DNA from: Devosia sp. MC521 | GTDB taxonomy: Bacteria > Pseudomonadota > Alphaproteobacteria > Rhizobiales > Devosiaceae | DNA: 64,000 bases | Reading direction: 5' to 3' | Assembly: GCF_014127105.1 (NCBI RefSeq) | Contig: NZ_CP059902.1 | Span: 405,001-469,000, forward strand | In this document: positions 13,644-42,505 of the stretch, one piece after another | Position numbering within the stretch: position 1 is the first letter of the stretch | Layout: the number at the start of each line of letters is the position of its first letter | The notes under the pieces: generated by a model | Database searches by the model: none | Told to the model about the DNA's origin: nothing | The model's input: the letters and a program-made list of their open reading frames with translations, nothing else | Program-made: the position numbers and the translations under genes

Positions 13644-16493
13644 TTAAGCTTGCGGAGAGAATGGCGTTTCGCTGTCGATGACGAGTGGTCGATCGTCGAT
13701 CAGGTCAGAAGGGATGCGCAGGCTGAACAACATGCCATCGCTGCCTGCCGGATCAACGGTCAGTGTCACTGTGTTGACCGCCAAAAGCGAGCGGGTCAGC
13801 GCTAGGCCAACGCTGGAGCGGACGGGTGCAAGGCTCTTGCCATTGCGATCCAGACCATCGCGGAACACCACGAACCGTTCTGTCAGATCAACGGTTCGGG
13901 CTGAGCTGTCGCGCACCTGAATGGCGATAGCCCCATCGTCCAGACGATGCGCCGAAATCACCACTGCGCCGCCCTTGGGCGTCTGGTCGATTGCACTGGC
14001 GAGAAGGTTCAGCACGGCCTGCGCCAGCGATGCTCTATCGGCGGTGACGCGGGGGAGTTGTTCAGAGATCGCGTTGCGCACGATGACTCGCGCGGTGCTG
14101 GCTTGTTCGCGAATGCGGATCACGCAGCTTTCAAGAAGGCTCGTTAGATCAAGCGTCGCGCGTTGCGGCATGTAGCGCCCGTCACGCAAGCGCGAATAGT
14201 CATCGAGCTCATCCACGAGCGCCGCAATTTCTTGTCCGGCTCGCGCGATATCGTCGGCAAAACCGGCATAACGATCATCATCCAGTTCACCAAAGCTCTT
14301 GGTGCGCATGATGTCGGAAAAACCGATGATGGTGTTGAGCGGACGGCGAACGCCACGGCTGATACGGCCCAGAAGAGCGGGATCTACATCGCTAGAATTG
14401 GTGCGGACGGGCATGGTTTCGCGCTTCCGCACAAATCCAAAATAGCCCGAAATTATGCCTGCCTGTCCAAGCGCGAACAGTAGGAGGTCGGCTTTGCCAT
14501 CGCGCATACGCAGGGCAAGGCATGGACGTGCTGATTCAGCAAAACGGGCAGGGCGCTCCATGAAGCGGCGGAGGGCTGGGGCGTCCTCATCGGCCACAAT
14601 GCTGGAGAGCAGACGGCCCAGAATCGCTTTGCCACCACCCAGCGTTTGCGTGGCCGTATCATTGGCATCGCTGATCACGCCGGAGCGGTTCGCCTCGATA
14701 TAGCCGTCCTGGCGCAAATCAGCGTAGCTGCGCGCAAAGTCTCGCACCGCATCTTCGTGGCTGGTGCGCACTTCGGACGTGCTGGCAGACAGCATAAGCG
14801 CGGGGCGGCCTTGCCAAGAGATAGACTGTAGGCGCGCGGTGACCGGCACCAGAGTGCCGTCGCGCTGTACGAGGTGATTGATCGGGCCAGCCTGCTGGTC
14901 TTCGCCTCCAAACGAAGGGAAAAGAGCGCCGAGCCCAGCCTGACGCAGAGCGTCGACACTCTCATAGGCCACCATTGCGGTAATGGCGCGGTTCGCAAAC
15001 AGGATTTGCTGGTCGCGGAACACGAGAATGCCCAGTGGCAAACGGTTCAGAACCAGTGTCTCGCCGCCGAGATTGATCAGCGCGCCCGAGCCCGCAACCT
15101 GAGGCACATTGGGCTGGCGGGCTTTATTCTCCTGCGATGGCAAGCCACCGACGCGATCATTGAGAATGCGCGAGAGTTCATCGAAATTGTAGCGCGAGAC
15201 GCGCTCGACGGTTTCAAGGTCCGGCACAGGCTCCGCAAGGGGCTCGTGGTCTGCCTCGTTCCGAGTCTTCTCGATAGGCTCGCTACCGTCGCTGTTGAGC
15301 ACAAAGCGCGTTGGTTCCGAAGGCGTAGGCGGCTTGTGGCTCGCGACAAACCCTCGACCAACGATCTTGAACAGTTTTGGCGACTCAGGCGGTTGCTCGA
15401 CAGCCTCGACAGCCTCGACAGCCTCGACAGCCTCGACAGCCTCGACAGCCTCGACAGCCTCGACAGCCTCGACAGCCTCGACAGCCTCGACAGCTTCGTC
15501 TTCGGGGACGAGTTGGAGGATGGTGGCGGGAGTGTCCGTAACTGCTGCGGGTTGCGTTACCGCTGGAGGCGTGTCGTCGCGCTCTGTAAGCGGGGCGAAA
15601 AGCGTATCGCCCTCGGACAGTTTGGCCACGAGATCGCTGAGACGACGTGCGACCTTTGTTGCCTGCTGAGCTGGCGCTGTGACTTGCACCGGCGCGGAAT
15701 CGGCATCCAGCGCCTCTTGCCAGTGCGCAGGCTCATCAATGCTTGGATCGAGGTCAGGGCGCGGCGCGGGTTCATAAACCGCTTCAGCGTCGGTTTCCTG
15801 CCAGCTTTCCAACTCACGCAAATAAGTGTGGTCCGCCTCAATGGGCGGCAGGGGGTGTTCTAGCGACGCGTCTTCTGCCTCTAGCCCATCAGGGTCTATA
15901 GCGGGTGGAGCGTCGCTCGAAAGCGCTTGCGGCTCGTCCGCGCGTGTTTCAGCCTCAGGAGCCTCAGGAGCCTCAGGAGCCTCAGGAGCCTCAGGAGCCT
16001 CAGGAGCCTCAGGAGCCTCAGGAGCCTCAGGAGCCTCAGGAGCCTCAGCTGTCTGCGCGGTTTCTACGGCGTGTTGCTCGGCTTCGGCAGCAGCTTGAGC
16101 GAACTGAAGAACGCCCGCTGCCTCAAAAATCTCTTCAGAAATCGGGTCGACCGCAACGATCAGCAGCACGCTCTCGTCGTTTTCCCAAGCGAGAGGCGTG
16201 GTCGCGCATGTCGAAGAGGTTGGCTTTTCGCCCGCTAGAAACTGAATGCGCGCCAAGCTCGTACGGCCTAGTGACCCCAGTCGGATTGTGCGCTGAACCT
16301 GACCCTTAATGGGTTTGGCCAAGGGGGTACGCTTTAGACCGCTTTTTTTCACTTTCGCCAAAAACAGCTCGGCGGCAGCGTTGTGCCACAACAGCGTTTG
16401 CCCATCACCAGACCATAGCCATGACGGTCGCGAATCCGAAGCATGCGCAAGCACGCGATCCGCATTCGGCAATGTCGTCCAGCTATCGTTCAT
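13644..16493 (-). CDS. PAS-containing histidine-kinase-like protein with degenerate catalytic residues
   Basis: A 949-residue protein with no clear membrane segment. The order is an N-terminal PAS-like fold (about 1-130), then a long acidic, low-complexity region with an EAP tripeptide array (near 150-180) and an EAV array (near 334-366). PAS-like segments lie around 480-690, followed by a DHp/HATPase module. The H-box that normally reads S-H-E-x-R-T-P-L-N reads SRGVRRPLN, so Arg replaces the phosphoacceptor His. The ATPase N-box reads LLASAID, where Asn is usual, and the G1 box reads DSSAR instead of D-x-G. Autophosphorylation therefore looks unlikely. It could be a scaffold or sensor in the PleC/DivJ/PdhS-like network. 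Confidence 0.75.
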   Translation of the reverse strand: MNDSWTTLPNADRVLAHASDSRPSWLWSGDGQTLLWHNAAAELFLAKVKKSGLKRTPLAKPIKGQVQRTIRLGSLGRTSLARIQFLAGEKPTSSTCATTPLAWENDESVLLIVAVDPISEEIFEAAGVLQFAQAAAEAEQHAVETAQTAEAPEAPEAPEAPEAPEAPEAPEAPEAPEAPEAETRADEPQALSSDAPPAIDPDGLEAEDASLEHPLPPIEADHTYLRELESWQETDAEAVYEPAPRPDLDPSIDEPAHWQEALDADSAPVQVTAPAQQATKVARRLSDLVAKLSEGDTLFAPLTERDDTPPAVTQPAAVTDTPATILQLVPEDEAVEAVEAVEAVEAVEAVEAVEAVEAVEAVEAVEQPPESPKLFKIVGRGFVASHKPPTPSEPTRFVLNSDGSEPIEKTRNEADHEPLAEPVPDLETVERVSRYNFDELSRILNDRVGGLPSQENKARQPNVPQVAGSGALINLGGETLVLNRLPLGILVFRDQQILFANRAITAMVAYESVDALRQAGLGALFPSFGGEDQQAGPINHLVQRDGTLVPVTARLQSISWQGRPALMLSASTSEVRTSHEDAVRDFARSYADLRQDGYIEANRSGVISDANDTATQTLGGGKAILGRLLSSIVADEDAPALRRFMERPARFAESARPCLALRMRDGKADLLLFALGQAGIISGYFGFVRKRETMPVRTNSSDVDPALLGRISRGVRRPLNTIIGFSDIMRTKSFGELDDDRYAGFADDIARAGQEIAALVDELDDYSRLRDGRYMPQRATLDLTSLLESCVIRIREQASTARVIVRNAISEQLPRVTADRASLAQAVLNLLASAIDQTPKGGAVVISAHRLDDGAIAIQVRDSSARTVDLTERFVVFRDGLDRNGKSLAPVRSSVGLALTRSLLAVNTVTLTVDPAGSDGMLFSLRIPSDLIDDRPLVIDSETPFSPQA
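15403..15492. repeat. 9-bp tandem repeat, ten copies (EAV array)
   Basis: Ten exact head-to-tail copies of GCCTCGACA lie inside the kinase-like gene. They encode repeated Glu-Ala-Val on the minus strand. The unit is a multiple of three, so copy-number change alters length without a frameshift. Confidence 0.95.
15952..16041. repeat. 9-bp tandem repeat, ten copies (EAP array)
   Basis: Ten exact copies of GCCTCAGGA in the same gene encode repeated Glu-Ala-Pro. The unit differs from that of the other array, so the two arose separately. Exact identity between copies suggests recent slippage. Confidence 0.95.
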
Positions 16494-16798: not shown

Positions 16799-16875
16799 GC
16801 CGCCTTAGCTCAGTTGGTTAGAGCGCTAGATTGTGGATCTAGAGGTCCTCGGTTCGATCCCGAGAGGTGGTACCA
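16799..16875 (+). tRNA. tRNA-His (GTG)
   Basis: A full cloverleaf of 77 bases with encoded CCA. The D-arm is GCTC/GAGC, the anticodon stem CTAGA/TCTAG with loop TTGTGGA (anticodon GTG), the variable loop AGGTC, and the T-arm CTCGG/CCGAG. The acceptor stem begins G1:U72 and the discriminator is A73. The base before G1 is T, so no G-1 is encoded. Most bacterial tRNA-His have G-1:C73. This atypical form is known from alphaproteobacteria such as Caulobacter, where it is matched by a divergent HisRS. A hisS of the matching type lies 4 kb downstream. Confidence 0.97.
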
Positions 16876-26808: not shown

Positions 26809-28473
<1,665 letters not shown>

Positions 28474-40585: not shown

Positions 40586-42505
40586 ATGAGCGACACTCCT
40601 AAACAACCCGAAGCCGCTGACCGTCTAGCCAAGGTCATCGCCCGCGCCGGCCTCTGCTCCCGCCGTGACGCTGAAGGCTGGATTGCCGATGGCCGTATTT
40701 CGGTGAACGGTAAGAAGGTCATTACCCCGGCCTTTAACGTTACCAGCCGCGACAAGATCGAAGTCGATGGCCTGCCACTCGCTGCCCGCCAAGGCACACG
40801 CGTTTGGCTCTACAACAAGCCTGCCGGCCTCGTTGTTACCGAAAAGGACCCAGAAGGTCGCCCAACGATCTTCGAAGCGCTCGACCGCATGGGTCTGCCG
40901 CGCGTCCTCACTGTTGGCCGTCTCGACATCAACACCGAAGGTCTGCTTCTGCTGACCAACGACGGTGGCCTCAAGCGCGTCCTCGAGCTGCCAGCCACCG
41001 GTTGGCTGCGTCGCTACCGCGTGCGTGCTTATGGCCACGTCACTCAGGCGCAGCTTGATGCGCTCAAGCACGGCATCACTGTTGACGGCATCCAATACGG
41101 TCCGATCACAGCAACGCTCGAACGCGAACAGGGCCACAACGTCTGGATGGTTCTTGGTCTGCGTGAAGGCAAGAACCGCGAAGTTAAGAACGTTCTTGGC
41201 TCGCTCGGTCTCGAAGTGAACCGTCTGATCCGCGTCTCCTATGGCCCGTTCCAGCTCGGCGATCTGGCCGAAGGCGGCGTCGAAATGGTCAAGTCCCGCA
41301 TGCTGCGCGATCAGCTCGGCAAGAAGCTTGCTGAATCGGCTGGTGTCGATTTTGAAAGCGAAATGCCAGAGTACGTGCCGCCAGTTCGTGACGAGACCTA
41401 TCGCGTCCGCTCCCCGCGTGACCGTGACCATGCCCGTCCAAATCCTGCCCGTGGCGCCCCGCCGCGTTTTGGCAGCCGCGATGAAGATCGTCCGACAGGC
41501 CGTACTCGCAAGGTACACTTTGACGACGACGGTCGCGCACCAGAAGCCTACGAACCACGCGCTCAGGAACGCGCGCGCTTTGATCGTGATGATCAGCCAG
41601 CGCGCAGCTTCGGCAGCGGCGCACCACGCGAAGACCGTGGTGATCGCGCTCCACGCGGTGACAAGCCATTTGGTGATCGTGCTCCACGTGGCGACAAGCC
41701 ATTTGGTGATCGTGCTCCACGTGGCGACAAGCCATATGGTGATCGTGCTCCACGCGGCGACAAGCCATTTGGTGATCGCGCTCCACGCGGCGACAAGCCA
41801 TATGGTAATCGCGCTCCACGCGGTGACAAGCCGTATGGTGATCGCGCTCCACGCGGTGACAAGCCGTTTGGTGATCGTGCGCCACGTGGCGACAAGCCAT
41901 TCGGCGACCGTCCAAAGCGTGATTTCGGTGATCGCCCACAGCGTTCGGATCGTCCATTTGGCGACCGTCCAAAGCGCGATTTTGGTGATCGTCCACAGCG
42001 CTCTGAGCGTCCATCGGGTGAGCGTCCAGCACGCAGCTTCGGTGATCGTCCGCAGCGTTCGGATCGTCCATCGGGCGAGCGTCCAGCACGCGGCTTCGGT
42101 GATCGTCCACAGCGCTCGGATCGTCCATTTGGTGATCGCCCACAGCGTTCAGAACGCCCATCGGGTGACCGTCCAGCGCGCAGCTTCGGTGATCGTCCAC
42201 AACGCTCAGAGCGTCCCTCTGGCGAGCGTCCAGCACGCGGTTTTGCTGATCGCCCACAGCGTTCGGACCGTCCATCGAATGATCGCCCACAGCGCGATTA
42301 CGGTGATCGTCCGCAGCGTTCGGATCGTCCAGCGCGTGGCGACAAGCCATTCGGTGACCGTAAGCCCTTCGGTGCAAAGCCGTTTGGCGCGAAGCCATTC
42401 GGCGGCAAGCCAGGTGGTGCACGTCCCGCCGGCGGTCGTCCGTCGAACTCGCGTCCATCTTCGGGCGGTCCTCGTCCGACCGGCCCGCGTAAGCCACGCG
42501 GCTAA
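40586..42505 (+). CDS. RluB-like 23S rRNA pseudouridine synthase with long repetitive tail
   Basis: 639 residues. Residues 10-60 are an S4 RNA-binding domain (RLAKVIARAGLCSRRDAEGWI in pieces). The RsuA/RluB-type catalytic domain has GRLDINTEGLLLLTNDG near residue 112, with the catalytic Asp, and G-L-R-E-G-K-N-R-E-V-K near 195. From about residue 270 the protein is a Gly/Asp/Arg/Pro/Ser-rich tail of about 360 residues. It is built from two repeat types, FGDRAPRGDKP and GDRPQRSDRPSGERPAR. RluB usually ends after about 250-290 residues, so the tail is unusually long. It is probably disordered and RNA-binding (RGG-like). Confidence 0.9.
   Translation: MSDTPKQPEAADRLAKVIARAGLCSRRDAEGWIADGRISVNGKKVITPAFNVTSRDKIEVDGLPLAARQGTRVWLYNKPAGLVVTEKDPEGRPTIFEALDRMGLPRVLTVGRLDINTEGLLLLTNDGGLKRVLELPATGWLRRYRVRAYGHVTQAQLDALKHGITVDGIQYGPITATLEREQGHNVWMVLGLREGKNREVKNVLGSLGLEVNRLIRVSYGPFQLGDLAEGGVEMVKSRMLRDQLGKKLAESAGVDFESEMPEYVPPVRDETYRVRSPRDRDHARPNPARGAPPRFGSRDEDRPTGRTRKVHFDDDGRAPEAYEPRAQERARFDRDDQPARSFGSGAPREDRGDRAPRGDKPFGDRAPRGDKPFGDRAPRGDKPYGDRAPRGDKPFGDRAPRGDKPYGNRAPRGDKPYGDRAPRGDKPFGDRAPRGDKPFGDRPKRDFGDRPQRSDRPFGDRPKRDFGDRPQRSERPSGERPARSFGDRPQRSDRPSGERPARGFGDRPQRSDRPFGDRPQRSERPSGDRPARSFGDRPQRSERPSGERPARGFADRPQRSDRPSNDRPQRDYGDRPQRSDRPARGDKPFGDRKPFGAKPFGAKPFGGKPGGARPAGGRPSNSRPSSGGPRPTGPRKPRG
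41640..42350 (+). repeat. Coding tandem repeats in the RluB-like tail
   Basis: The first part repeats a 33-base unit (FGDRAPRGDKP, about nine copies). The second part repeats units ending PQRSDRP or PARGFGD. Copies differ at third positions, so the array is older than the 9-bp arrays at 15-16 kb. Confidence 0.9.

Follow-up and report, generated by a model that had tools for sequence, protein, structure and literature searches.

Two different arrays of a 9-base unit, each with ten exact copies, lie within a single gene of Devosia sp. MC521, which raises the question of how they arose there and whether they do anything for the protein that carries them. The gene (13644..16493, minus strand) was defined by its open reading frame and by Pfam, codes for a 949-aa PAS-containing pseudo-histidine-kinase, and lies in a 64,000-nucleotide stretch of DNA that is referred to here as the window. 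We consider it likely that both arrays expanded recently and in frame within a disordered acidic linker of the pseudo-kinase, and that, of the species sampled, only this one has them. Repeats unrelated to these have been gained by this linker in several species, its acidity having stayed in a narrow band, and it offers a testable case of length change in a bacterial signaling linker.

Two exact arrays in one reading frame

A sequence-only reading of the window had reported two different exact 9-bp arrays of ten copies each, and both were recovered by a position check, by a count of period-9 runs and by TRF. Array 1 has an exact core of ten copies of GCCTCAGGA at 15952-16041, the gene being on the minus strand, within a full exact period-9 run of 98 bases, (GAGGCTCCT)n, at 15951..16048 (minus strand). 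Array 2 has an exact core of ten copies of GCCTCGACA at 15403-15492, within a full exact run of 99 bases, (GAGGCTGTC)n, at 15396..15494 (minus strand); TRF agrees with both runs, and 459 bases separate the two cores. In the coding frame, array 1 consists of ten copies of GAG GCT CCT (Glu-Ala-Pro; residues 150-179) and array 2 of 11 copies of GAG GCT GTC (Glu-Ala-Val; residues 333-365), the first of which differs by one base (GAA GCT GTC). Both are in-frame tandem copies inside the coding frame with a unit that is a multiple of three, so that the frame is preserved as originally supposed. Since 9-base steps keep the frame, an on/off switch is not implied by the sequence. Antisense ORFs also span the arrays; since the arrays are confined to this genome, nothing points to a conserved antisense product. 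When codons were drawn according to the gene's usage outside the arrays, the chance of obtaining the same codons ten times was ~10^-16 per array, which argues that each array derives from the copying of a single seed.

Such arrays are rare in the part of this genome that was sampled. A scan for exact runs (period 1-120, at least 3 copies, at least 30 bases) of the window and of 53 further 20-kb stretches, together 1,124,000 bases or ~30% of the chromosome, returned no array beyond these two. At 26817-26844 there is an exact 9-base run, CCATGCCGC, of 3.1 copies and 28 bases, which is the sole other exact run of at least 27 bases and at least 3 copies in that sample.

A host protein that is a pseudo-kinase by sequence

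Pfam PAS_8, HisKA and HATPase_c all scored above cut-off in the 949-aa protein. Its first 125 residues (16119..16493, minus strand) form a conserved N-terminal domain, recognized by conservation (a mean of 66-87% per 25-residue block) and by an AlphaFold model, in which it is a well-folded alpha/beta domain with pLDDT >90 from residue 11 on; a Pfam search matched no family to residues 1-125. Residues 426 onwards are mostly conserved and include the PAS domain (Pfam PAS_8; residues 481-531; 14901..15053), a HisKA-like domain identified by Pfam and by reading of its H-box (residues 708-772; 14178..14372), and a HATPase_c-like domain identified by Pfam, in which the N, G1, and G2 boxes are degenerate (residues 819-929; 13707..14039), all on the minus strand.

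The label of pseudo-kinase given to the protein at the outset is borne out by these boxes. In place of SHExRTPLN, the genus loci have an H-box SRGVRRPLN or a close variant, with Arg at the site of the phospho-acceptor His, and the ATP-site boxes are degenerate (N-box NLLASA, G1 VRDSS, and G2 RSSVGL); S833, S893, and S894 are invariant in 46 sequences. The genus is taken here as a group of 75 genomes that excludes some species that NCBI calls Devosia. Of these 75, 74 had a match to the C-terminal half of the protein at E <= 1e-60, and 72 gave loci that could be read, two partial matches (G042 and G048) and one weak match (G059) being left out. All 72 genus loci read have Arg at the site of the His, as do 46 of the 50 loci read in other family genera; the remaining four have Gln (1) or His (3). 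His is found in all 25 order-level homologues read, a set made up of the best 30 of 100 matching genomes after removal of five from the family itself. Of 13 family loci checked, 11 have Ser instead of the N-box Asn; all 25 order-level homologues have the Asn and mostly retain G1 and G2 as well. The assignment of the 949-aa protein as a pseudo-histidine-kinase by sequence therefore holds. The data point to a kinase-dead histidine kinase spread over the genus and most of the sampled genera of the family (the gene was matched in 14 of 16), and no paper on a Devosia pseudo-kinase was among the 12 of 105 literature matches listed. Loss of the His is nearly family-wide; the three loci that keep it belong to two other genera of the family, so that the change could be dated on a tree. 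A tRNA-His gene (16799-16875) adjoins the pseudo-kinase gene in divergent orientation in the window and in 35 of 35 named loci scanned (71 fetched), and the two are a stable gene pair.

Among sequences of solved structure, the nearest were RetS, which ranked first, HK853-type kinases and DivL, the last being outscored by other solved kinases. A fold search with the whole model returned PAS/histidine-kinase and phytochrome matches, with TM-scores by query length of 0.13-0.16. DivL of Caulobacter (PDB 4q20) is similar to the core of the protein by sequence (E 4.2e-11) and in the fold search and, as described in PMC4211667, it likewise joins PAS to a HisKA/HATPase core that is devoid of the phospho-acceptor His. 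According to the same paper, DivL has Tyr at the His site, with one Ala exception named, and appears to keep its characteristic motifs, whereas the protein studied here has Arg and degenerate N, G1, and G2 boxes, as well as a long disordered linker that sets it apart from DivL. DivL is also characterized by phospho-specific binding of DivK. The best two NCBIfam models, PdhS (NF041593) and DivJ (NF050805), scored 137.6 and 92.2 bits, far short of their cut-offs of 2000 and 1000, respectively, and PdhS membership was rejected; elsewhere in this genome, four sites outscore the kinase core of the gene against the PdhS model. By analogy with other kinase-dead histidine kinases, the protein is probably a docking or relay scaffold for which the linker would serve as a tether, a role that, like any partner, is read solely from domain type.

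A variable acidic linker that gains repeats

The N-terminal domain is separated from the PAS and kinase core by a variable acidic linker, mostly predicted to be disordered (residues 126-425; 15219..16118, minus strand), which we delimited by conservation, lengths, composition, and pLDDT. The arrays had been proposed to sit in a linker, and both indeed lie within this one. Three short conserved motifs were recognized in it by eye, all on the minus strand: motif 1 (AYxRELxSW-like; residues 223-231; 15801..15827), at which the model has a helix (223-237); motif 2 (RLSxLVxRLA...PL-like; residues 283-304; 15582..15647), likewise near a helix (278-294); and motif 3 (LFKVTGRGF-like; residues 375-383; 15345..15371), at two strands (375-378 and 381-384). 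Array 1 sits between the N-terminal domain and motif 1, and array 2 between motifs 2 and 3, with motifs 1 and 2 between the arrays. In the AlphaFold model, which was built on a 46-sequence alignment (mean pLDDT 68, pTM 0.39), most linker blocks have pLDDT <50, with short helices near the motifs. Residues 151-178 and 312-372, which take in nearly the whole of both arrays, are below 50, and neither array has any secondary structure, a low pLDDT being no evidence of a fold either way. The segment that hosts the arrays is accordingly predicted to be disordered, and it is variable among orthologues.

Linker statistics were compiled from 69 of the 72 genus loci, leaving out L035, where the linker meets a contig end, and L065 and L080, two genomes in which either a mutation or a sequencing error splits the frame of the orthologue. 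Linker length is 240 ± 40 residues (range 162-349; CV 0.17), acidic fraction 0.257 ± 0.020 (CV 0.08), and net charge per residue -0.214 ± 0.025. EAP is present in 39 of the 69 linkers and EAV in 26, the linker of this genome included. The stretch between motifs 2 and 3 (71 residues here, against a median of 25 in the others) is the longest of the 69, and that before motif 1 ranks 11th longest. No relation between length and net charge was seen in the 69 genus orthologues (Spearman -0.11, p 0.38, kinship ignored). These data are best read as constraint on acidity and on the short motifs, and not on length, in a linker whose make-up stays acidic and Ala/Pro-rich. The linker of PopZ, as presented in PMC9512792, is likewise acidic and Pro-rich, with composition conserved rather than sequence. 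That paper describes PopZ, a different protein, as having a linker of conserved length in which a longer linker goes with a lower charge fraction, whereas the linker studied here varies twofold in length independently of charge, and compensation of the PopZ type was rejected for it.

Repeats of other kinds occur in the same linker elsewhere. Exact arrays of at least 24 bases and at least 3 copies were found in 4 of 122 orthologue loci, this genome (L009) included, and in 3 of the 121 others the linker holds exact arrays of other sequence. These are a 6-base unit, GAGACT, repeated 5.8 times and read as Glu-Thr (L011); 6-base units in a Glu-Ala frame in a distant member of the family (L085; 3786-3866), to which TRF assigned 13.5 copies with a 96% match; and a 24-base unit coding for EPSAEPTE, repeated four times at a contig start (L035). 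The L035 assembly breaks inside its linker array, one contig beginning with four copies and the other with ~3, so that both contigs of the orthologue (L318 and L319, and L035) start within the 24-base repeat; the contig with the N-terminal part of the gene begins inside the same kind of array. When TRF was run at a score of 50 on the 122 orthologue loci, the linkers (86.9 kb, from 120 loci with both ends found) contained 14 arrays, two of them from this genome and every one with a period divisible by three, compared with 14 arrays in ~398 kb outside the linkers, eight of which had such a period (the TRF array of L055 shows 12% indels, its consensus being 23 bases long, and L035 is outside both counts). 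In-frame repeats are thus about fourfold denser per base in the linker than in its surroundings; most TRF linker arrays of the relatives have just ~2 copies, and exact arrays are few there (3 of 121 loci).

Age, copy number and origin of the arrays

The exact copies had been taken as a sign of recent slippage, and comparison with the relatives agrees as to their recency. Eight relatives differ from this genome at 51-65% of fourfold sites in the conserved domain, and the ten core copies of each array show zero differences, which argues that the arrays arose, or were last homogenized, long after the split from those relatives. Neither unit was found as a triple copy with at most one mismatch in the 74 other genus genomes, seven of which have <90% completeness or >5% contamination; one genome per species was compared, and it is on that sample that the arrays are called species-private.

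Doubt had also been raised as to whether the arrays are artefacts of assembly. That the arrays themselves exist seems secure, for reads must contain the repeated unit; the number of copies is another matter, as ten may be a floor. The true arrays might be longer, having been collapsed by a k-mer graph to about the k-mer size, so that the copy number is partly a product of assembly. The spans of the two runs are nearly equal, at 99 and 98 bases, and since collapse of a period-9 repeat would give k to k+8 bases, any k of 91-98 would fit both; according to PMC6868369, the first stages of one assembler collapse repeats at 96, later expansion being possible. The break within the orthologous linker array of L035 points the same way. 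Against this, the genome is a single contig of 3,780,495 bases, which suggests long reads, and the equal spans may be due to chance. We regard collapse as rather unlikely, and ten copies may nevertheless be a lower bound, given that the spans fit a k-mer ceiling.

What the arrays do for the protein, if anything, has several possible answers. It is conceivable that they were selected for structure, with EAP forming a stiff rod and EAV a helix; array 1 does begin where the long helix of the model (120-149) ends, and proline at every third residue disfavors a helix. Valine at every third residue would make no continuous stripe along a helix, the model leaves the arrays without structure, with pLDDT <50 nearly throughout, and neither array is common to any of the 74 other genus genomes searched; we hold selection for structure to be very improbable. 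A second view, in which the number of copies determines how long and how charged the tether is and thereby tunes the output of the pseudo-kinase, as an adaptive coding contingency locus, has more to draw on. Two arrays lie within one linker and none elsewhere in the 30% genome sample, and according to PMC9512792 the length and charge of the PopZ linker alter condensate properties and fitness. With its arrays removed, the linker has a net charge per residue of -0.143, weaker than in all 68 others (the weakest being -0.148); with them it has -0.183, and eight of the 68 are as weak or weaker. Total linker charge goes from -34 without the arrays to -55 with them, the mean of the others being -51.3, and when 30+33 residues were removed at random from other linkers, 1.4% of trials reached -0.143. 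However, under a stricter control in which the two most acidic windows were cut, 21 of the 68 other linkers reach that value, and the acidic fraction without the arrays, 0.207, is not the lowest, as L050 has 0.189. The charge result, coming from one case, is therefore suggestive at most, and restoration of charge by the arrays is graded here as suggestive. The genus linkers range from 162 to 349 residues with no correlation with net charge, and the unusual length between motifs 2 and 3 is as compatible with loose constraint as with selection; the length tuning that was first envisaged is possible but unsupported. Tuning of output by copy number is on the whole improbable. So, too, with slender odds, is a broader proposal that the linker is an evolvable charged tether, in which slippage arrays of differing acidic units, gained time and again and independently within the family, would keep or restore its negative charge and so tune a kinase-dead scaffold through copy number in a graded and reversible way.

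The favored explanation remains that of recent in-frame expansion. Replication slippage or unequal exchange, which we infer as the origin of the arrays, would have amplified pre-existing Glu-Ala-Pro and Glu-Ala-Val triplets. Nine-base steps would keep the frame, and the Glu, Ala, Pro, and Val of the units resemble the existing composition of the linker, so that selection may let the arrays stand. The arrays would then lengthen the charged spacer that links the N-terminal domain to the short motifs and to the PAS/pseudo-kinase core. As the two arrays are the sole such runs in 30% of the genome, something more than general tolerance may favor the linker. DNA hairpins were considered as a trigger of slippage and found to lack support, since folding showed no more than ordinary hairpin propensity (z of -0.46, 1.43, 3.81, and -0.81 for the four array strands and of 0.44 and 1.13 for two controls).

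In-frame repeat expansion is a known kind of event, found here in an interesting gene. The prokaryotic in-frame coding repeats and low-complexity regions treated in PMC6821194 likewise have a short in-frame unit, Ala, Pro, and Glu, and a possible origin by slippage. The present case differs from them in that two different 10-copy arrays occupy one gene in a nearly array-free genome sample.

The window also contains a long imperfect repeat tail at 41638-42331, with periods of 33, 57, and longer, within an ORF (40586-42505) that we take, by eye, to be pseudouridine-synthase-like and of the RluB type. Its units read GDRPQRS and GDRAPRGDKPF, and it looks older than the Glu-Ala-Pro and Glu-Ala-Val arrays.
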